Below are positions 51,187-62,187 of a DNA stretch of 64,000 bases, in pieces. The DNA comes from Pseudoxanthomonas sp. J35 (GTDB lineage Bacteria > Pseudomonadota > Gammaproteobacteria > Xanthomonadales > Xanthomonadaceae), in the NCBI RefSeq assembly GCF_000513995.1, contig NZ_KI911337.1, positions 2,067 to 66,066 on the forward strand. The letters run 5' to 3'. The position numbers and the translations under genes are program-made. Each line of letters begins with the position of its first letter. The stretch's first letter is position 1. Under the pieces are notes generated by a model that saw nothing but the letters and a program-made list of their open reading frames with translations, made no database searches and had not been told where the DNA came from.

Positions 51187-52869
<1,683 letters not shown>

Positions 52870-52945
52870 TTCCGCGCCGGCCCGGATGCCCGGGCCGCGC
52901 ATCCCGCCATAGCCGCAGCAACACGACGTCCCACGGAGAAGCACC

Positions 52946-54238
<1,293 letters not shown>

Positions 54239-54596: not shown

Positions 54597-55637
54597 ATGT
54601 CCAGCGAGGGCGTGGCGCGCAAAGTCCGCCAGACAGTGGAGCAGGAAGCGCCCGGTGGCGGCAACGCCACCCTGTCGGCGTGCGAGGCCGGACTGTTCGC
54701 GGCGGTCGGCCGCGAACGGGCCATGCGTGCCGGGGAGCGCCTGTTCCGCCGCGGCGACCCCGGCGAACTCATGTATGTCATCGCCAGCGGCCGGGTCGAA
54801 CTGGACTTCGGCAACGACCTGGCGACCAAGCAGCTGGGTCCGCAGGAATTCTTCGGCGAACTGGGCCTGCTGATCGGCGAGCACACCCGCAGCGCCGACG
54901 CGGCCTGCATCCAGGACGGGCGCCTGTACGAACTGGGCCAGGGCGAGTTCCAGCAGCTGGTCGACCGCGATCCGGCGCTGGTCGCGCAGTTCCTGCGCCG
55001 TTCCATCACCCGCGTGGTGCTCAACGAGCAGGGCCTGATCCGCCAGCTGCGGCGCCGCAACCAGGACCTGGAAACGGCCCTGGACAACCTCTACGCCACT
55101 ACCCACCAGCTCAACCAGACCGAGGAGCTGATCCGCACCGACGAGCTCACCGGCCTGTACAACCGCCGCGGCCTGACCCTGCACATGCAGGAATGCCGCC
55201 GGCTGGGCATGGACAAGCCGATGGGCCTGGTGCTGGTGGACTGCGACCGCTTCAAGCAGGTCAACGACGACCACGGCCACCTGGTCGGCGACCGCGTGCT
55301 GCAGAACGTGGCCGGCATCCTGCGCTCGGTCGCCGGCGCCGAGGACGTGCCGTGCCGGCTCGGCGGCGACGAGTTCTGCCTGCTGGTCTCGGCGCAGGGC
55401 CGCGACGAGGTCATGCGCTACGCCGAATTCATCGTTTCCACCACGCGCAGCCTGCTGAAACTGCAGCAGACGGTGCCGACGATCTGCCCGGTCAGCGTTG
55501 GCGCCTGCCTGGTCGAGCCGGAGCGCGACTGGAACGACTGGTACGCGCGCGCCGATGCCGCCCTCTACGAGGCCAAGCGCCTGGGCGGCAACCGCGCTTT
55601 CTGGATGGACGAAACCCCACCGCCCGCGATGGCATGA
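54597..55637 (+). CDS. Cyclic-nucleotide-binding domain and GGDEF protein (RiPP locus)
   Basis: The 346-residue protein has an N-terminal cNMP-binding/Crp-like sensor domain (about 30-150; RAGERLFRRGDPGELMYVIASG, in part: GDPGELMYVIASG) and a coiled-coil linker (about 155-185). The GGDEF domain has intact active-site residues at 256-260 (LGGDEFC). The usual inhibitory RxxD motif is replaced by GAED. It should make c-di-GMP in response to an unknown ligand. Start: ATG 54597 follows AGGGAG; an in-frame ATG at 54417 would add 60 low-complexity residues. It is 12 bp upstream of the cyclase-like gene, so the two are one operon. Confidence 0.85.
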   Translation: MSSEGVARKVRQTVEQEAPGGGNATLSACEAGLFAAVGRERAMRAGERLFRRGDPGELMYVIASGRVELDFGNDLATKQLGPQEFFGELGLLIGEHTRSADAACIQDGRLYELGQGEFQQLVDRDPALVAQFLRRSITRVVLNEQGLIRQLRRRNQDLETALDNLYATTHQLNQTEELIRTDELTGLYNRRGLTLHMQECRRLGMDKPMGLVLVDCDRFKQVNDDHGHLVGDRVLQNVAGILRSVAGAEDVPCRLGGDEFCLLVSAQGRDEVMRYAEFIVSTTRSLLKLQQTVPTICPVSVGACLVEPERDWNDWYARADAALYEAKRLGGNRAFWMDETPPPAMA

Positions 55638-55649
55638 GGGCGGACGCCG

Positions 55650-58265
55650 ATGGATGGCCAGCCGCACCATCACGACACCGATTCCCCGCAGCTGCGGACC
55701 CTGCTGCTGACCGACCTGTGCGAATCCACGCAGCTGGTCGAGCGGCTGGGTGATTCGGCGGCCGCGGCGCTGTTCCGCGACCACGACCAGCTGGTGCTGG
55801 AACTGCAGCACCGCTGGCGCGGCCGCCTGATCGACCGCTCCGACGGCATGCTGCTGCTGTTCGAGCGCCCGCTGGACGGGCTCGGCTTCGCCCTGGACTA
55901 CCGCCGCGGCCTGGACGCGCTGGGCCAGGCGCACCGCGTCGGCCCGCTGCTGGCGCGTTCCGGCCTGCACGTCGGCGAGCTGCTGGTGTGGCGCAACAGC
56001 GAGGAAGCGGTCAGCGCCGGGGCCAAGCCGGTGGAAGTGGAAGGCCTGGCCAAGCCGTTCGCCGCGCGGCTGATGCAGCTGGCGCGGCCGGGGCAGATCC
56101 TGCTGTCGTCGGTGGCCGAACCGCTGGTGCGCCGCGCCGCGCGCGAACTGGGCGAACGCGGCGCCACGCTGCAGTGGCGCACGCACGGGCGCTGGCATTT
56201 CAAGGGCGTGCCCGGCGTGCAGGAAGTGCACGAGGTTGGCGAGCCGGGGCTGGCGCCGCTGCGCATGCCGCGCGGCGACTCCAAGGCGCGCCGCGACCTG
56301 CCGGCATGGCGACGGCCGATGGCGCTGGTCGCCGAGGTGGTGCTGGTGGCCGGCGTGGCGGTCGCCATCTGGGCGGTGACCCGCCCGCAGCCGGCGATCG
56401 CCTTCGCCGAACGCGACTGGGTGGTGGTCGGCGACCTGCGCAACCTCACCGGCCAGACCGTGCTGGACGATTCGCTGCAGCAGGCGTTCCGGATCAGCCT
56501 GGAGCAGTCGCGCTACGTCAACGTGCTCAGCGACCTGAAGGTCCGCGATACCCTGGCGCGGATGCAGCGCGACCCGGCGGCGACCAGGGTGGATCGCGCC
56601 ATCGGCTCGGAAGTCGCCCAGCGCGACGGCGCGCGTCTGCTGATCCTGCCGACGGTGGCGGAAGTGGGCGGGCGCGTGCGCTTCAGCGCCGAGATCGTCG
56701 ATCCGCGCACCCAGCGCACCCTGGCGGCCGAATCGGCCGACGGCCGCGGCCTGGAATCGGCGCTGCGCTCGATCGACCAGGTCACCGCCTCGCTGCGCAA
56801 CGCGATGGGCGAGAGCCTGGCCTCGATCCAGCGCGATTCGGCGCCGCTGCCGGACGTGAGCACGTCCAACATCGACGCGCTGCGCGCCTACGCGCTTGGC
56901 CAGCAGGCCTTCGGCAACTCGGAGTACGAGAAGGCCGCCGGCTTCTACGCCCGCGCGGTCGAATTGGATCCGGATTTCGCCCTGGCCTACGTCGGCCTGC
57001 TGCGCGCGGCCAATGCCCAGGTGAAACGCGACGAAGCCCTCGCAAGCCTGCGCGAGGCGATGGCGCACAAGAACCGCCTGCCGCCGCGCGAGCAGCTGTA
57101 CCTGGATGCCTGGAACGCGCAGCTGACCGCGCCGGCGGACGCGCTCGACAAGTGGCGGCAGATGAGCGAGCTGTACCCGGACTTCTTCCCGGCCTACGCC
57201 AACGTCGGCTACGGCCTGCTGTCGGCGCGGCGCTACGCCGACGCGATGGACTACGCGATGCGCGCCACCGACCCGCAGAGCGAATTCGCGGCGCTGTCGA
57301 TGGCGCTGGTCGGGCAGCTGCACCTGGGCCTGGAGAACCCGGGCAAGGCCGCCGAGGCCTTCGCCGCCGCGCAGGAAGGCGGGGTCAGGAACGCGCCGGT
57401 CGGCCGCGCGATCGCGCTGGCGGCGCGGCGCGAGTTCGACCGCGCGCACGAGGCGTGGAACCGGCAGCCGACCCAGGACGTGGCCTATTTCGACCACGCC
57501 AGCATCCTGCTCGACCAGGGCGACTGGGACGGCGCGATCGAGGAGATGCGCCGGCAGCTGGCGGCCACCGAGCCCGGCAGCGTACGCAACCAGATCGGCC
57601 AGCTGATGCTGGCCAGCGTGCAGGTGCTGGGCGGCCGCCCGCATGCCCGCGACGCGCTACGCCAGGCCGTGGAACCGCTGCTGGCGCGCACCGGGGACGA
57701 GGCCGCCCCGCTACCTGACGTGCTGGACTCCGCCTACGCGGTGCTGGTCGGCGCGCTGCTGGCGCAGCGCATCGGCGACACCCGCCTGTCCGGCGAAGTG
57801 CTGCGCCGGCTCAAGGGCCAGCCCCATACCAGCGGCGACCTGCCGCCGGCGAAGCTGTACCTCGCCGTGCAGGCCGGGCAACGGCTGGCCGAAGGCGACG
57901 CCGCGCAGGCGATCGCGCTGCTGGAACCGGCGCTGGACGGCGCCGAACCGGTGCAGGCGCACCGCATCCTGCTGGAGGCGTACCGCGCCCGCGGCGACAC
58001 CGCGCGCAGCCTGCGCGAATCGCGCTGGCTCGCCGCGCACCGCGGCCGCAGCTACGTGGAACCCGGCTGCGGGCGCTGCCAGCAGGCCTTGAACGTATTC
58101 GATACCGTCGTCAGCCACCTCGAAAGCGCCGAGCTGCTCGCGTCCTCCGCCAGGGCGAAGGACGCGGCCGCGGAACTGGAGCGGTTCGACAGTGCGTGGC
58201 CGGCCGAGCGCCTGCCCGATTACTTGAGGCGGCGCAGGGAAGCGGTGCTGGCCGCATTCAACTGA
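55650..58265 (+). CDS. Putative peptide-modification-system cyclase (class III cyclase domain, TPR)
   Basis: This 871-residue protein has an N-terminal class III nucleotide-cyclase domain (about 15-190). Two metal aspartates are visible, D22 (LLLTDLCEST) and D65 (IDRSDGMLLLF). The usual V-N-x-A-A-R transition-state motif reads K-P-F-A-A-R, so the Asn is a Pro and activity is uncertain. A membrane helix (about 224-244) is followed by a FlgO/TolB-like region (about 255-390) and a long TPR-like helical region with a CGRC motif at 807-810. The domain set fits the family named putative peptide modification system cyclase in xanthomonads. It overlaps the precursor gene tail-to-tail by 46 bp. Confidence 0.85.
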   Translation: MDGQPHHHDTDSPQLRTLLLTDLCESTQLVERLGDSAAAALFRDHDQLVLELQHRWRGRLIDRSDGMLLLFERPLDGLGFALDYRRGLDALGQAHRVGPLLARSGLHVGELLVWRNSEEAVSAGAKPVEVEGLAKPFAARLMQLARPGQILLSSVAEPLVRRAARELGERGATLQWRTHGRWHFKGVPGVQEVHEVGEPGLAPLRMPRGDSKARRDLPAWRRPMALVAEVVLVAGVAVAIWAVTRPQPAIAFAERDWVVVGDLRNLTGQTVLDDSLQQAFRISLEQSRYVNVLSDLKVRDTLARMQRDPAATRVDRAIGSEVAQRDGARLLILPTVAEVGGRVRFSAEIVDPRTQRTLAAESADGRGLESALRSIDQVTASLRNAMGESLASIQRDSAPLPDVSTSNIDALRAYALGQQAFGNSEYEKAAGFYARAVELDPDFALAYVGLLRAANAQVKRDEALASLREAMAHKNRLPPREQLYLDAWNAQLTAPADALDKWRQMSELYPDFFPAYANVGYGLLSARRYADAMDYAMRATDPQSEFAALSMALVGQLHLGLENPGKAAEAFAAAQEGGVRNAPVGRAIALAARREFDRAHEAWNRQPTQDVAYFDHASILLDQGDWDGAIEEMRRQLAATEPGSVRNQIGQLMLASVQVLGGRPHARDALRQAVEPLLARTGDEAAPLPDVLDSAYAVLVGALLAQRIGDTRLSGEVLRRLKGQPHTSGDLPPAKLYLAVQAGQRLAEGDAAQAIALLEPALDGAEPVQAHRILLEAYRARGDTARSLRESRWLAAHRGRSYVEPGCGRCQQALNVFDTVVSHLESAELLASSARAKDAAAELERFDSAWPAERLPDYLRRRREAVLAAFN

Positions 58266-58558
58266 TTCGGGGTCATGCCCACGCCCGAACCGAGCATCGC
58301 CTCCAGCGACGAGCGCGCGCTGGCGATGGCCGCCTTCGGCGCGATCCGCTCCACGCGCAGGCACACGGCCAGCTGCTCCAGCGCGGCTTCACCGGCGGCG
58401 TCGCCCTTGGCGACCTTGTAGCCGGACGCCACCAGCGCGGCCTTCGGATCCTTCTTGAACAGGCGCCGGAACTCGTTGTCCGTGCCCAGCTTGTCCAGGA
58501 ACTTGCGCGCCACCTTCGGATCCAGCGGCACGCGGCTGCCAGCCTTCTTCGTTGCCAT
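58220..58558 (-). CDS. NHLP-leader RiPP precursor peptide (putative modified peptide)
   Basis: The 112-residue basic protein has a nitrile-hydratase-alpha-like leader at about 13-49 (DPKVARKFLDKLGTDNEFRR then FKKDPKAALVASGY), then an Ala-rich helical middle (about 50-88), with a single cysteine, C66. The C-terminal tail of about 22 residues after the Gly-rich GSGVG holds Ser, Thr, Asn and Arg (MTPNQLNAASTASLRRLK) and is the likely core. The ATG at 58556-58558 follows GGGGAAACC. It is convergent with the cyclase-like gene and divergent from the dehydrogenase gene, 174 bp away. Confidence 0.82.
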   Translation of the reverse strand: MATKKAGSRVPLDPKVARKFLDKLGTDNEFRRLFKKDPKAALVASGYKVAKGDAAGEAALEQLAVCLRVERIAPKAAIASARSSLEAMLGSGVGMTPNQLNAASTASLRRLK

Positions 58559-58732
58559 GATGGTTTCCCCAGGAACGTCCCGGAATGGGCCGCTCCCGCA
58601 ATCTAGCGGCCGCGCCGGCCGCCCACAAGGGCGGCCGCGTTGCGGCGGCGGAGCCGATCGCGCAGGCTGTCGGCGGGGTGTCCGCGGCGCGAACGTGATG
58701 CCGGACGGGTAACGGAGAACGGGGAGGCGCGG
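58559..58732. other. Divergent promoter region of precursor and dehydrogenase genes
   Basis: This 174-bp gap between two divergent starts contains the palindromes GGCCGCG/CGCGGCC near 58607-58640 and a GGGAGG ribosome site for the plus-strand gene. I see no strong -35/-10 pair, so promoters cannot be placed with confidence. Confidence 0.5.
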
Positions 58733-59896
58733 ATGCGCGTGCGGCGGTGCCGGGTGCTCTACATCGAGCCCCGCGAGGACGTGGAGTTCGACCTGGCGGA
58801 TGTGCTGCGCGGTGGCGACGGCCTGGCCAGCCGCATGCGCTGGCTGGCGCTGGCGCCGCACCTCGCACGGGAAGTGGAACTCGACGCGCGCGAACGCGAA
58901 CTGCTCGGCCGGTTGAGCGCGGAGCGCTGGGTGGACCGCGCCACGCTCGACGGGGACGCGCGCAAGGCGCTGCCACGGCTGCTGCGCGAAGGGCTGGTAC
59001 TGGGCAGCGGCAAGCGGCATGCGGCGATGCGCCAACGCGAGGAAGCGCTGCGCGAGGTGCACTGGGATCCGCTGGCGGCCACCATGCACGCCTTCACCCG
59101 CTGGGAGGACGCCGACGCGGTGCGGTCGATGGAGGACACCGGCACGGTGACCATCGAGGAGGTACGCGAACTGTTCGGCGCGCCGCCGCCGGCAGTGCCG
59201 GTGCCGGAAGACGATGCGTTGCTGCAGCTGCCGCGCGCGGCGCGCGGCGACTTCGACGCGCTGCTCTCGCGCCGCGTCACCTGCCGCAACTTCGACACCG
59301 CCCGCCCGCTGCCACGGACGCTGTTCGCGCAGGTCCTCGAGCGCGTGTTCGCCGCGCACGGGAAGATGGAAGTCACCGCCGACACGGTGTTCCTGAAGAA
59401 GAACTGCCCCTCCGGCGGCGGCCTGCATCCGGTGGAGGCCTATCTGCTGGTGCAGAACGTCGAGGGCGTGGTGCCGGGCCTGTACCACTACCATCCGGTG
59501 CGGCATGCATTGCGCCCGTTGCCGTCGCCGGGCCGGCCGCTGGCCGACCTGGCGCTGGAGGCGGTGGCGCGCCAGCACTGGTTCGCCAACGCGCACGCGA
59601 TGGCGATCCTCGCCCCGCGCTACGACCGCCACTTCTGGAAGTACCGCCGCCATCCCAAGGGGCTGCGCGTGGTCACGCTGGAGGCGGGGCATCTTTCGCA
59701 GCTGCTGTACCTGGCGGCGACCGACGCGGGCCTGGCGGCGTACATCACCGCGGCGATCAACGAACAGCCACTGGAACGCGCGCTGGGCCTGGATCCGCTG
59801 CGCGAAGGCGTGCTGGCGGTGTGCGGCTTCGGCTGGCGCGCCGCGACGATGGAGACGATGGAGCTGGATCCGGGCGCGGCGGTCTGGCAGCCGTGA
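58733..59896 (+). CDS. Putative peptide-maturation dehydrogenase (SagB-like, FMN)
   Basis: The 387-residue protein has an N-terminal domain of about 170 residues without close motif matches, then a SagB/nitroreductase-type FMN domain. The motifs are RRVTCRNFDTARPL (phosphate-binding-like), SGGGLHPVEAYLLV with GLYHYHPVRHAL, and GLRVVTLEAGHLSQLLYLAA. In azol(in)e-RiPP systems, SagB-type enzymes oxidise azolines to azoles; here no YcaO cyclodehydratase is present in the window. The arrangement with the NHLP precursor and cyclase fits the family named putative peptide maturation dehydrogenase. The ATG at 58733 follows GGGAGG. Confidence 0.83.
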   Translation: MRVRRCRVLYIEPREDVEFDLADVLRGGDGLASRMRWLALAPHLAREVELDARERELLGRLSAERWVDRATLDGDARKALPRLLREGLVLGSGKRHAAMRQREEALREVHWDPLAATMHAFTRWEDADAVRSMEDTGTVTIEEVRELFGAPPPAVPVPEDDALLQLPRAARGDFDALLSRRVTCRNFDTARPLPRTLFAQVLERVFAAHGKMEVTADTVFLKKNCPSGGGLHPVEAYLLVQNVEGVVPGLYHYHPVRHALRPLPSPGRPLADLALEAVARQHWFANAHAMAILAPRYDRHFWKYRRHPKGLRVVTLEAGHLSQLLYLAATDAGLAAYITAAINEQPLERALGLDPLREGVLAVCGFGWRAATMETMELDPGAAVWQP

Positions 59897-59969: not shown

Positions 59970-62048
59970 TTACTTCTGTACGTTCGGCGTGTGGCCCTGC
60001 AGCGCCTCGGCCAGCCCGTCCACGCCCTCGGCGCCCACCGGGGCGGTGGCGCTGGACCCGGCCAGGTCCTCGCCGATCGGCTGCGCGCGGCCGCCCAGGC
60101 ACCTGGCCAGGAAGTTCTCCGCGATCGCGTTGAAGGCCTTGTTGTTTTCCGGACGGGCGAAGCCGTGGCCCTCGTCGGGGAACAGCACGTAGGTGACCGG
60201 GATGTTCTTCGCCTGCATCGCCGCGACGATCTGGTCGCTCTCGGCCTGCTTCACCCGAGGGTCGTTGGCGCCCTGGCCGATCAGCAGCGGCTTCCTGATC
60301 TGGTCGGCGCGGGTCAGCGGCGAGCGTTCCTCCAGCCACTTGCGGCCTTCCTCGGTGCGCGGGTCGCCCATGCGCCGCGCCAGCTGCTCGAAGAAGCTGG
60401 CCCAGTACGGCGGCACCGTCGACAGCAGGGTGGCGAGGTTGGACGGCCCGACGATGTCCACGCCGCAGGCGAAGGTGTCCGGGGTGAAGGTCAGGCCGAC
60501 CAGCGTGGCGTAGCCGCCGTAGCTGCCGCCCATGATCGCGACCTTGTCCGGGGTGGTGATGCGCTGCTCCACCGCCCAGTTCACCGCGTCGACCAGGTCG
60601 TCGTGCATCTTGCCGGCCCACTCGCCGTCGCCGGCGTTGGTGAACTCCTTGCCGAAGCCGGTGGAGCCGCGGTAGTTGACCGAAAGCACCGCGTAGCCGC
60701 GGTTGGCCAGCCACTGGTTCCAGCTGCTGTAGCCGTAGCCGTCGCGCGCCCACGGTCCACCATGCACCAGCAGCACCAGCGGCACCGGCGTGTCGGCCTT
60801 GCCGTCGCCGTCGGGATCCGCCTGCGCCGGCAGGGTCAGGTAGCTGGGCAGGGTCAGGCCGTCGCGCGACTTCAGCTCCAGTGGCCACTGCGGCACCAGC
60901 GGCTTGCCGTCCAGCGCCGGGCGCGCGGAGAACAGCCTGGTCAGCCTGCCTTCGGCGCCGGGCGTGCGGTCGTAGCGGTAGTACACCACCGGCGATTCGG
61001 CGGCCGAGTAGGTGACGATCCAGGTGCGGTCGTCGAGCGTGCGCGCGTTGACGCCGACCTCGCCCGGGCCGATGCCTTCGAGCACCTTGAGGTCGGCCGC
61101 CAGCGCGTCGCCGACAGGCTTCCACTCGTTGCGCAGGTAGTCCACCGACACCGCCTGCAGCTCGCCGGTGCGCGGATCGGCCAGGCCGCCGCCGATGTCG
61201 GCGCGCGCGTCCTCGGCCAGCAGCCTGCGTTCGCCGCTGGCGCTATCGATCGCGTACACCGCGGCGGTATTGCGGTTCCGCGAATCGGCCAGGTACAGCG
61301 TCTTTCCATCGTGGGTCAGGCCCAGCACGCTGGTGGTCAGCACGTCCTCGAACGGTACGTCGTCGGCCTGCTCCCAGCCGTCGCCGGCGCGGCGCAGGAT
61401 GTCGAGGCCGCCGTCGGGGCGCGAGCGCTGGGCGAAACGCAGGTTGTACTCGCCGTCGGCGATGTAGCCGGCGATCTGCCGGGTGTTCTTCTCCACCAGG
61501 GTGCGGTCGCCGCTGGCCAGGTCGACCCGGTACAGGTCGTGCCACTTGGCGTCGCGGTCGTTCATGCCGACCAGGATGCTGTCCGGCTGCGTCGGGCTGA
61601 CGCCGACGACCTGCGCGGTGGTCTTCGCGAACGGAGTGAGGTCGCGCGCCTGGCCGGTGGCGAGGTCCACCGCGTAGAGGTGGAAGTCCTCGTCGCCGCC
61701 GGTGTCGCGCAGGTACAGCAGCGTGTCCGGGCGGTACGACCAGAAGTAGTTGCGGATCCCGCGGGCCTTGTCGTCGGTGACCGCGCGCGCGGCGGAGGGA
61801 TCGTTCGCCGGCGCGACCCAGACGTTCATCACGCCGTCGACCGGCGCGACCCAGCTGAGGTACTTGCCGTCCGGGCTGATCTGCACCGCCGCGCGCTCGG
61901 GATTGCCGAACAGCGCATCGCGCGGGATCAGCTCGACTTCCTTCGGTGTTTCGGGCGTGGCGGCGGCGGTGCCTTCCTCCTGTTTGCCGGTACAGGCGGC
62001 CAGGGCGAGGGCGAGGCTGGAGACGGCGAACAGGGCGGTGCGGCGCAT
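59970..62048 (-). CDS. S9 family peptidase (prolyl-oligopeptidase/acylaminoacyl type), lipoprotein
   Basis: The 692-residue protein has a lipoprotein signal (lipobox LALAAC), a beta-propeller domain (about 35-400, repeats such as ISPDGKYLSWV and LTHDGKTLYLAD) and an alpha/beta-hydrolase domain. The catalytic triad is Ser in GGSYGGY, Asp in GANDPRVKQAES and His in DEGHGF. It probably removes or shortens peptides in the periplasm. The ATG at 62046-62048 follows GGGAG; an upstream start at 62090 would bury the signal. It is next to the RiPP locus, but on the opposite strand with its own terminator, so a role as processing protease is possible but unproven. Confidence 0.93.
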   Translation of the reverse strand: MRRTALFAVSSLALALAACTGKQEEGTAAATPETPKEVELIPRDALFGNPERAAVQISPDGKYLSWVAPVDGVMNVWVAPANDPSAARAVTDDKARGIRNYFWSYRPDTLLYLRDTGGDEDFHLYAVDLATGQARDLTPFAKTTAQVVGVSPTQPDSILVGMNDRDAKWHDLYRVDLASGDRTLVEKNTRQIAGYIADGEYNLRFAQRSRPDGGLDILRRAGDGWEQADDVPFEDVLTTSVLGLTHDGKTLYLADSRNRNTAAVYAIDSASGERRLLAEDARADIGGGLADPRTGELQAVSVDYLRNEWKPVGDALAADLKVLEGIGPGEVGVNARTLDDRTWIVTYSAAESPVVYYRYDRTPGAEGRLTRLFSARPALDGKPLVPQWPLELKSRDGLTLPSYLTLPAQADPDGDGKADTPVPLVLLVHGGPWARDGYGYSSWNQWLANRGYAVLSVNYRGSTGFGKEFTNAGDGEWAGKMHDDLVDAVNWAVEQRITTPDKVAIMGGSYGGYATLVGLTFTPDTFACGVDIVGPSNLATLLSTVPPYWASFFEQLARRMGDPRTEEGRKWLEERSPLTRADQIRKPLLIGQGANDPRVKQAESDQIVAAMQAKNIPVTYVLFPDEGHGFARPENNKAFNAIAENFLARCLGGRAQPIGEDLAGSSATAPVGAEGVDGLAEALQGHTPNVQK

Positions 62049-62187
62049 GCGGTGACTCCCCGGTGATGCCGGCGGCATCGGAGCGGACACGCTAGCGCGG
62101 AAGCGGCGTGGGCGAGGTTGCCTGCGCGTTAAACCATGACCATGACCGATGGGGGATAACCCCCGGTCGCGCCAGGCACTGCCCGGC

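Follow-up and report, generated by a model that had tools for sequence, protein, structure and literature searches.

A TPR half of a cyclase, a precursor peptide and a SagB-like dehydrogenase exchanged as one block between xanthomonad lineages

What joins a peptide-modification locus to cyclic-nucleotide signalling? The question is raised by four adjacent genes at 54597-59896 of the window, a stretch of 64,000 nucleotides (nt) from Pseudoxanthomonas sp. J35, which encode a cNMP-GGDEF protein, a cyclase with a membrane span and a TPR half, an NHLP-type precursor peptide and a SagB-like dehydrogenase. The presence of these four genes, originally predicted to be one locus for a ribosomally synthesized and post-translationally modified peptide (RiPP), was confirmed by gene coordinates and by NCBIfam and Pfam matches. 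The three xanthomonad families that it named are the right ones, each matched above cut-off: TIGR04509 by the peptide (63.3 bits, cut-off 34), TIGR04510 by the cyclase (1087.2 bits, cut-off 400) and TIGR04511 by the dehydrogenase (563.4 bits, cut-off 240). The first gene's protein matches Pfam GGDEF with 126 bits and cNMP_binding with 64.5 bits. The NCBIfam definitions of the three families include neither the cNMP-GGDEF partner nor the type structure described below. We found that the TPR half, the peptide and the dehydrogenase are one block exchanged between lineages while the cyclase domain and the diguanylate cyclase stay, and that the proteins of the first two genes match a published signalling pair of Xanthomonas campestris.

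Co-inheritance of the genes and exchange of the block

Among 299 genomes of the order, the same set for all three families, TIGR04511, TIGR04510 and TIGR04509 were each above cut-off in 82; all three were present in 80 and any of them in 84, and therefore the linkage is not due to chance. The genes are thus a co-inherited set, and the prediction of a single system withstood the search for co-occurrence that it had called for. The four exceptions to the full set are G276, with the cyclase only, G277, with a precursor match under the cut-off, G261, whose cyclase is cut by a contig end and so falls under the cut-off, and G290, with decayed fragments. A class-wide sample of 229 genomes gave three above the dehydrogenase cut-off, all of the window's own family, and 40 more with dehydrogenase matches only below it. 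Orthologues of the cNMP-GGDEF protein (E at most 1e-30) occur in 87 of the 299 genomes, namely in 81 of the 82 with TIGR04510 above cut-off and in six of the 217 others, G261 being one of the six.

We fetched 111 loci (87 + 24). Cyclase, peptide and dehydrogenase each occur once in 85 of them, the other 26 being set aside; 83 have all four genes. The cNMP-GGDEF gene adjoins the cyclase gene upstream on the same strand in 75 of the 87 fetched loci, and lies apart from the other genes in seven genomes (G214, G265, G014, G024, G073, G235 and G261).

Within genera the locus falls into two parts (table 1). The diguanylate cyclase and the cyclase domain are highly similar in g5 and g8 (about 94-95% identity), identity drops in the membrane-proximal part of the cyclase, and the TPR half and the peptide lie below both conserved parts in all eight genera having a pair. 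The dehydrogenase follows them except in genus g56, where the single pair has 61.3% against 52.9% and 59.3% for the conserved parts.

Table 1. Median within-genus protein identity (%) of the parts of the locus; g1 is the window's genus
Genus	Pairs	Diguanylate cyclase	Cyclase domain	Membrane-proximal	TPR	Peptide	Dehydrogenase
g5	325	93.8	94.8	56.2	31.5	36.1	47.4
g8	21	94.0	94.8	63.5	30.2	38.3	54.4
g2	153	72.7	72.3	51.1	28.3	36.2	46.4
g1	6	78.4	77.5	61.0	38.9	44.2	61.9

The variable parts change together. Among 306 within-genus pairs with cyclase domains at least 90% identical, which are not independent of one another, 192 have TPR halves below 45% identity, and in these the peptide is below 50% in all 192 and the dehydrogenase below 60% in 188. 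Another 106 have TPR halves at least 70% identical, with the peptide at least 60% and the dehydrogenase at least 70% in all 106, and eight are intermediate. Given the diguanylate cyclase and the cyclase domain, the partial correlations of identity are 0.84 for peptide and TPR half, 0.79 for TPR half and dehydrogenase and 0.75 for peptide and dehydrogenase.

The clearest exchange is between the loci of G241 (L059) and G175 (L086). Their conserved-half proteins are 99.7 and 100% identical, whereas TPR half, peptide and dehydrogenase are at 23.2, 26.7 and 31.9%. One DNA flank of 8155 nt matches at 97.3% identity and the opposite one, of 6935 nt, at 98.8%; the intervening 3515 nt contain no match of at least 150 nt. 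The L086 block is closer to the blocks of g8 (TPR half 46-47, peptide 55-56 and dehydrogenase 51-52% identity). Across the 26 loci and six types of g5, counting DNA as shared when at least 75% identical (over at least 300 nt inside the block), none of 226 between-type pairs share DNA inside the block, against 225 on the diguanylate cyclase side and 201 downstream, while all 99 same-type pairs share DNA in all three regions. In g5 the left edge of the exchange falls in the membrane-proximal part, the median lying at residue 311 of the window cyclase (about 56580) and the interquartile range being 284-341.

Trees of 39 rows, made by a quick method with no mixture model, conflict reciprocally between the conserved half and the block. 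The diguanylate cyclase and cyclase domain together recover g5 and g8 as clades (support 100 and 99.7), and with them the approximately unbiased (AU) test rejects types A, B and C and the group of L086, L075, L079 and L085 (p = 3.8e-4, 7.6e-4, 9.9e-17 and 1.6e-5). Conversely, monophyly of g5 is rejected by the TPR half (6.8e-172) and by the dehydrogenase (1.5e-57), as is that of g8 (1.8e-75 and 3.8e-5), and both of these trees have types A, B, C and the L086 group as clades at 99-100, under a warning from the tool of long branches meeting. As the TPR half served to define the types, independent evidence comes from the trees of the dehydrogenase and of the conserved half.

All parts are functional, being under purifying selection within a type and different between types. 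The pooled ratios of nonsynonymous to synonymous substitution rates within types A, B and C are 0.05-0.09 for the diguanylate cyclase and cyclase domain, 0.09-0.13 for the TPR half, 0.12 for the dehydrogenase, 0.12-0.16 for the precursor leader and 0.03-0.12 for its tail.

The conserved half: cyclic GMP and cyclic di-GMP

The window's first two genes match, as probable orthologues, XC_0249 and XC_0250 of X. campestris, a published pathway from a guanylate cyclase through cyclic GMP (cGMP) to a diguanylate cyclase; domain order, adjacency, the match to PDB entry 5h5o and the cGMP-contact residues are alike. In that work XC_0250, a class III cyclase with TPR, produces cGMP and not cyclic AMP, XC_0249 binds cGMP with a dissociation constant of 0.293 uM and is boosted by it in cyclic di-GMP (c-di-GMP) synthesis, mutants are reduced in biofilm and virulence, and adjacent homologues are noted for xanthomonads and Stenotrophomonas (PMC3770947). 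Both guanylate cyclase activity and cGMP-stimulated c-di-GMP synthesis are reported for X. campestris only. Sensing by the TPR part of XC_0250 is described as uncharacterized in this 2013 paper, whose main text has no occurrence of XC_0251, a peptide, a dehydrogenase or an operon, nor of exchange of the TPR half (PMC3770947). Cyclic-nucleotide coupling had been predicted for the locus as inference from domains alone; given the published pair, the cyclic-nucleotide half has more behind it than that.

The top PDB match of the window's cNMP-GGDEF protein is 5h5o_A, 'Diguanylate cyclase' (139.9 bits, residues 23-149). Its E, H and E residues are spaced as E90, H98 and E146 of XC_0249 at a constant offset of 22, which suggests that 5h5o is the XC_0249 domain; the paper's own code, 4KG1, is not among the best 60 of 89 matches. 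The window domain has F, E, L, H, V, N and E at all seven cGMP-contact positions. Over 76 aligned rows (75 from the loci and the window, which is itself among the 75), F73, E90, L91, H98 and E146 are conserved in all 76 and GGDEF is intact in all 76, and the N145 position has N in 51, S in 17 and G in 8. Five loci of g5, very probably the genus Xanthomonas, lead the ranking against 5h5o with cNMP domains 88-96% identical, and these also carry the peptide and the dehydrogenase. The dehydrogenase is above cut-off in 28 of the 35 g5 genomes, in G305 and G321 of these only in pieces.

The cyclase pattern D22, D65-G66 and R140 is present in 85 of 93 rows, the remaining eight being truncated, domain-less or degenerate. 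We take the first metal-binding aspartate, by the class III pattern, to be D22, which is conserved in intact rows, rather than D35. A replaced transition-state asparagine, judged presumptively by the class III motif, had raised the suspicion of a dead cyclase, but activity is reported for the X. campestris protein and the pattern is kept in those 85 rows, so this reading was abandoned. The metal ligands named for the Xanthomonas protein, D41 and D71 (PMC3770947), correspond after a shift of 6 to D35 and D65 (window 55650-56264).

A single hydrophobic segment was found in 81 of 86 cyclase rows, two in four and none in one; the window's is at about residue 225. The N side of the segment is the more positive in all 85 rows having one, a positive-inside pattern. 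Because the cyclase domain needs cytosolic GTP, the TPR half is predicted to be periplasmic.

The cNMP-GGDEF gene also adjoins the glyoxylate-shunt genes aceB-aceA (window 51187-54238), and aceA is present in 67 of the 87 fetched loci.

A candidate peptide signal and competing explanations

A hypervariable part that takes in the processing enzyme, the peptide and the sensor half of the receptor, beside a conserved output half, is the layout of agr and comQXP systems, and such a block is found here in g5 and g8. In comQXPA the hypervariable part reaches across the sensor half of ComP. Bacillus comQXPA has an agr-like polymorphic layout (PMC4408185, PMC4008528), and in agr of Staphylococcus aureus one hypervariable region runs across agrB, agrD and agrC (PMC10482373). 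The proteins have nothing in common: AgrB or ComQ, a histidine kinase and a response regulator there, and a nitroreductase, a cyclase-TPR protein and a cNMP-GGDEF protein here, so that the receptor would be a guanylate cyclase instead of a histidine kinase, the effector a diguanylate cyclase and the processing enzyme a flavin mononucleotide (FMN) dehydrogenase, with no export protein in the set. The locus would thus work like agr/comQXP but is not a member of either.

We consider it fairly probable that the locus encodes a polymorphic signalling system in which the peptide is the putative signal and the guanylate cyclase its receptor. The dehydrogenase would recognize the helical NHLP-type leader and oxidize a residue of the C-terminal tail, probably with loss of 2 Da to give a dehydro-residue. 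The peptide or its tail would reach the periplasm and be read by the TPR half of the guanylate cyclase; this would alter cGMP, which the cNMP domain of the neighbouring diguanylate cyclase would bind, and c-di-GMP would rise. Peptide, modifying enzyme and sensor half would make up a single specificity block, swapped between lineages. We infer the modification, the export, the binding of peptide to TPR half and the sign of the peptide's effect on cGMP. The sole cyclase carrier lacking a cNMP-GGDEF orthologue, G091, has a degenerate cyclase domain, and as the two go together we count this in favor of a receptor cyclase with its effector. A sharper proposal, made tentatively and at somewhat less than even confidence, is that the receptor guanylate cyclase senses a pheromone, a ribosomal peptide dehydrogenated by the enzyme. 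The system would then be a Gram-negative equivalent of agr/comQXP that runs on cGMP, its many types being exchanged through recombination within the receptor gene, and would supply the missing input of the Xanthomonas cGMP to c-di-GMP pathway. The coupling of peptide and cyclic nucleotides foreseen in the original prediction is kept in the linked set, but its implied direction, with messengers serving the modification, is probably reversed, a peptide feeding a receptor being the better fit. The exchangeable block, the lack of YcaO in most tested carriers and the XC_0249/XC_0250 match go beyond that prediction.

This view joins an orphan set of RiPP families with a well-studied bacterial cGMP pathway, the two being separate in the literature found: in a search of open-licence PMC papers none joins XC_0250/XC_0249 with the peptide families or reports the exchange, and the product and chemistry of these families are, as had been stated, still undescribed there. 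The wording 'peptide maturation dehydrogenase' was found in one paper, on graspetides (PMC8939145). The exchange offers the co-inherited peptide as candidate input for the TPR part of the cyclase, so that the question can be put to a direct test. Were this view correct, peptide-sensing receptor guanylate cyclases would exist in bacteria, a polymorphic communication system would be common to many genera of the order, and a SagB-like enzyme would function without YcaO, likely by new chemistry.

Several observations weigh against a peptide signal. The Xanthomonas cyclase domain by itself restored biofilm (PMC3770947), and five genomes (G111, G106, G254, G231 and G030) have the cNMP-GGDEF gene without the others. 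The GG/GA double-glycine motif is absent from the window peptide, and is found in the last 45 residues of 36 of 108 precursors and missing there in 72. Neighbor clustering and homology counts over the 87 fetched loci gave no conserved exporter or peptidase beside the genes (the weight is on the homology counts, since the genes for the clustering were called crudely, antisense frames included), and Peptidase_C39 occurs in just 29 of 50 carriers tested. Within types the tails evolve no faster than the leaders. In G091 and in the second copy of G059 the cyclase domain is degenerate and sensor half, peptide and dehydrogenase persist, so that these parts can act without cGMP, or are decaying. In G235 (L108 3407-18169) nine precursor and five dehydrogenase matches accompany one over-threshold cyclase, which is not one ligand per receptor. 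In G305 and G325 the dehydrogenase is broken and the other three genes are retained, and G276 retains cyclase and diguanylate cyclase without peptide or dehydrogenase. Downstream of the dehydrogenase, G096 (L066 11240-13360) and G203 (L067 11151-13091) have extra membrane-spanning TPR proteins that lack a cyclase domain; these share about 50% identity with the TPR halves of other types and are possibly remnants of an older cassette.

Of the competing explanations, the one that survives best, though we think it unlikely, is a secreted RiPP effector acting as a competition factor, with the TPR half as cognate self-protection or self-recognition like polymorphic toxin-immunity sets and with cGMP and c-di-GMP reporting on or setting production. 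Discrete co-varying types and array-like expansions such as that of G235 would fit it too, and the NHLP-clan protein Os1348 of Pseudomonas influences antibiotic activity (PMC7726476). However, what co-varies with the peptide belongs to a guanylate cyclase, as its sensor half, and 81 of 82 carriers also have the cGMP-responsive effector; no conserved exporter is nearby and the tail is under purifying selection within types.

Less probable again is a peptide that stays inside the cell, as a modified small regulatory protein of NHLP fold acting on the cyclase or on other partners. The lack of a linked exporter and of a double-glycine motif in the window peptide and near the end of 72 of 108 precursors suit this explanation, as does the report that Os1348 is full-length in cells and was not detected in the supernatant (PMC7726476), but the peptide co-varies with the predicted periplasmic TPR half and not with the cytosolic cyclase domain.

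We give very little credence to a mere conserved neighborhood, in which an old RiPP locus lies by an unrelated cGMP pathway and is locally hypervariable without joint function. It would account for the diguanylate cyclase being alone in five of 299 genomes and apart from the other genes in seven, but the edge of the exchange is within the cyclase gene, so that the TPR half moves with peptide and dehydrogenase, and all parts are under purifying selection within types. Moreover, aceB, aceA, the cNMP-GGDEF gene and yifB remain together in G111, G106 and G231, where no cyclase, peptide or dehydrogenase match was seen; these three genes are therefore absent jointly beside a retained diguanylate cyclase.

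The 108 aligned precursors have a conserved leader and a variable C-terminal core, and a low-confidence model of the window peptide has helices at 14-26, 28-36, 38-44, 54-66 and 75-90, with a predicted local distance difference test (pLDDT) score below 50 over 92-112. The window dehydrogenase matches TIGR03605, SagB-type dehydrogenase (105.4 bits, cut-off 78.4), and has CyaGox, McbC and BmdC as PDB relatives. Its own model, from a three-row alignment, has a mean pLDDT of 37.7, and only residues about 51-90 reach 63-76, as a helix-helix-strand element that might be a winged-helix leader-binding part. That the enzyme oxidizes azolines formed by a cyclodehydratase of the YcaO kind, the chemistry of pathways like those of microcin B17 and streptolysin S, is hardly credible: it shares the nitroreductase fold family, sequence similarity and the Lys-Tyr motif with SagB/McbC azoline dehydrogenases, and W-K-Y is present in all 88 dehydrogenase rows (three fragments dropped), but 48 of 50 carriers tested (of 84) are without YcaO, none was found in the window's genome, and in the other two carriers, G256 and G235, it is on other contigs than the locus.

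Closer in kind are PflA/PflD (PMC12636437) and Os1348-Os1351 (PMC7726476) of Pseudomonas, which likewise have an NHLP-type leader without typical double-glycine and a nitroreductase or SagB-type dehydrogenase without YcaO. They differ in that PflD is fused to an MNIO, in the HEXXH enzyme, GNAT and transporters of the cluster and in having no cyclase in the accounts given there, and the window peptide scores 27.3 bits against the Os1348 family, whose cut-off is 40. PflD comes from a YcaO-free cluster, and its nitroreductase domain is reported to convert Phe beside Asp in an NHLP-type precursor to Z-dehydrophenylalanine (PMC12636437). An [FL][DEN] dyad occurs in 77 of 85 tails against 38.5 in shuffled tails (standard deviation 4.2, maximum 52); the 85 rows are related, so the excess marks a conserved feature and not a mechanism. 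By analogy, the likeliest modification is a putative loss of 2 Da in the tail at an [FL][DEN]-type residue, which in the window would be at L100-N101.

Feature coordinates and further observations

The features of the locus are listed in table 2. The peptide gene is convergent with the cyclase gene, the 3' ends overlapping by 46 nt (58220-58265), and divergent from the dehydrogenase gene; as it is opposite in strand to the other three, the four genes are not one operon. Among the 87 convergent pairs of peptide and cyclase genes in the fetched loci, 41 overlap.

Table 2. Positions of the features in the window
Feature	Position	Strand	Basis
cNMP-binding + GGDEF protein, 346 residues, orthologue of XC_0249, probable cGMP-activated diguanylate cyclase	54597..55637	+	Pfam/NCBIfam domains, PDB match, contact residues
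TIGR04510 protein, 871 residues: cytosolic class III cyclase domain, single membrane span, TPR half; XC_0250 orthologue	55650..58265	+	NCBIfam, active-site pattern, hydropathy
Cyclase domain, conserved, residues 14-205	55689..56264	+	94.8% median identity in g5 and in g8
Membrane span, residues about 225-243	56322..56378	+	hydropathy
TPR half, predicted periplasmic, type-specific sensor part	56379..58262	+	charge pattern, identity drop
TIGR04509 precursor peptide, 112 residues	58220..58558	-	63.3 bits
Helical leader, residues 1-91, NHLP clan	58286..58558	-	column conservation over 108 precursors; low-confidence model
Variable tail, probable core, residues 92-112, with L100-N101	58223..58285	-	low conservation, pLDDT <50, dyad
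Divergent intergenic region, peptide/dehydrogenase	58559..58732	.	gene coordinates
TIGR04511 SagB-like FMN dehydrogenase, 387 residues; W302-K303-Y304 at 59636-59644	58733..59896	+	NCBIfam, PDB relatives
Equivalent of the exchangeable block (sensor half, peptide, dehydrogenase)	56580..59896	.	mapped from g5 and g8 exchanges; no exchange seen at the window's own locus

No consensus promoter or terminator was found within 58200-58800, and a CRP/Clp-type site, searched with what we take to be its consensus, occurs nowhere in the locus and four times in the window against a chance expectation of 10.2. Downstream, a prolyl-oligopeptidase-family (S9) peptidase at 59970-62090 on the minus strand, with a weak below-cut-off match to lasso-peptide isopeptidase, was rejected as a member of the set, being present in 12 of 87 loci.

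A one-protein scan of named genomes gave three loci, and the closest named relative found is P. suwonensis J47 (dehydrogenase 94% identical), so that the window's genome is Pseudoxanthomonas-like. Broken copies in g5 are L176 (G305), L177 (G321), L178 (G325) and L116 (G290), in which the dehydrogenase is fragmented or in pieces; in G305 and G325 both the cyclase gene and the cNMP-GGDEF gene look whole. Beside its cyclase, G091 (L114 6223-9784) has an array of five near-identical precursors. There is also a second form of the locus, with nine of 87 dehydrogenase genes opposite in strand to the locus cyclase (L075, L079, L085, L086, L108, L110, L111 and L113), mostly with short precursors ending in Val-Phe-rich tails.

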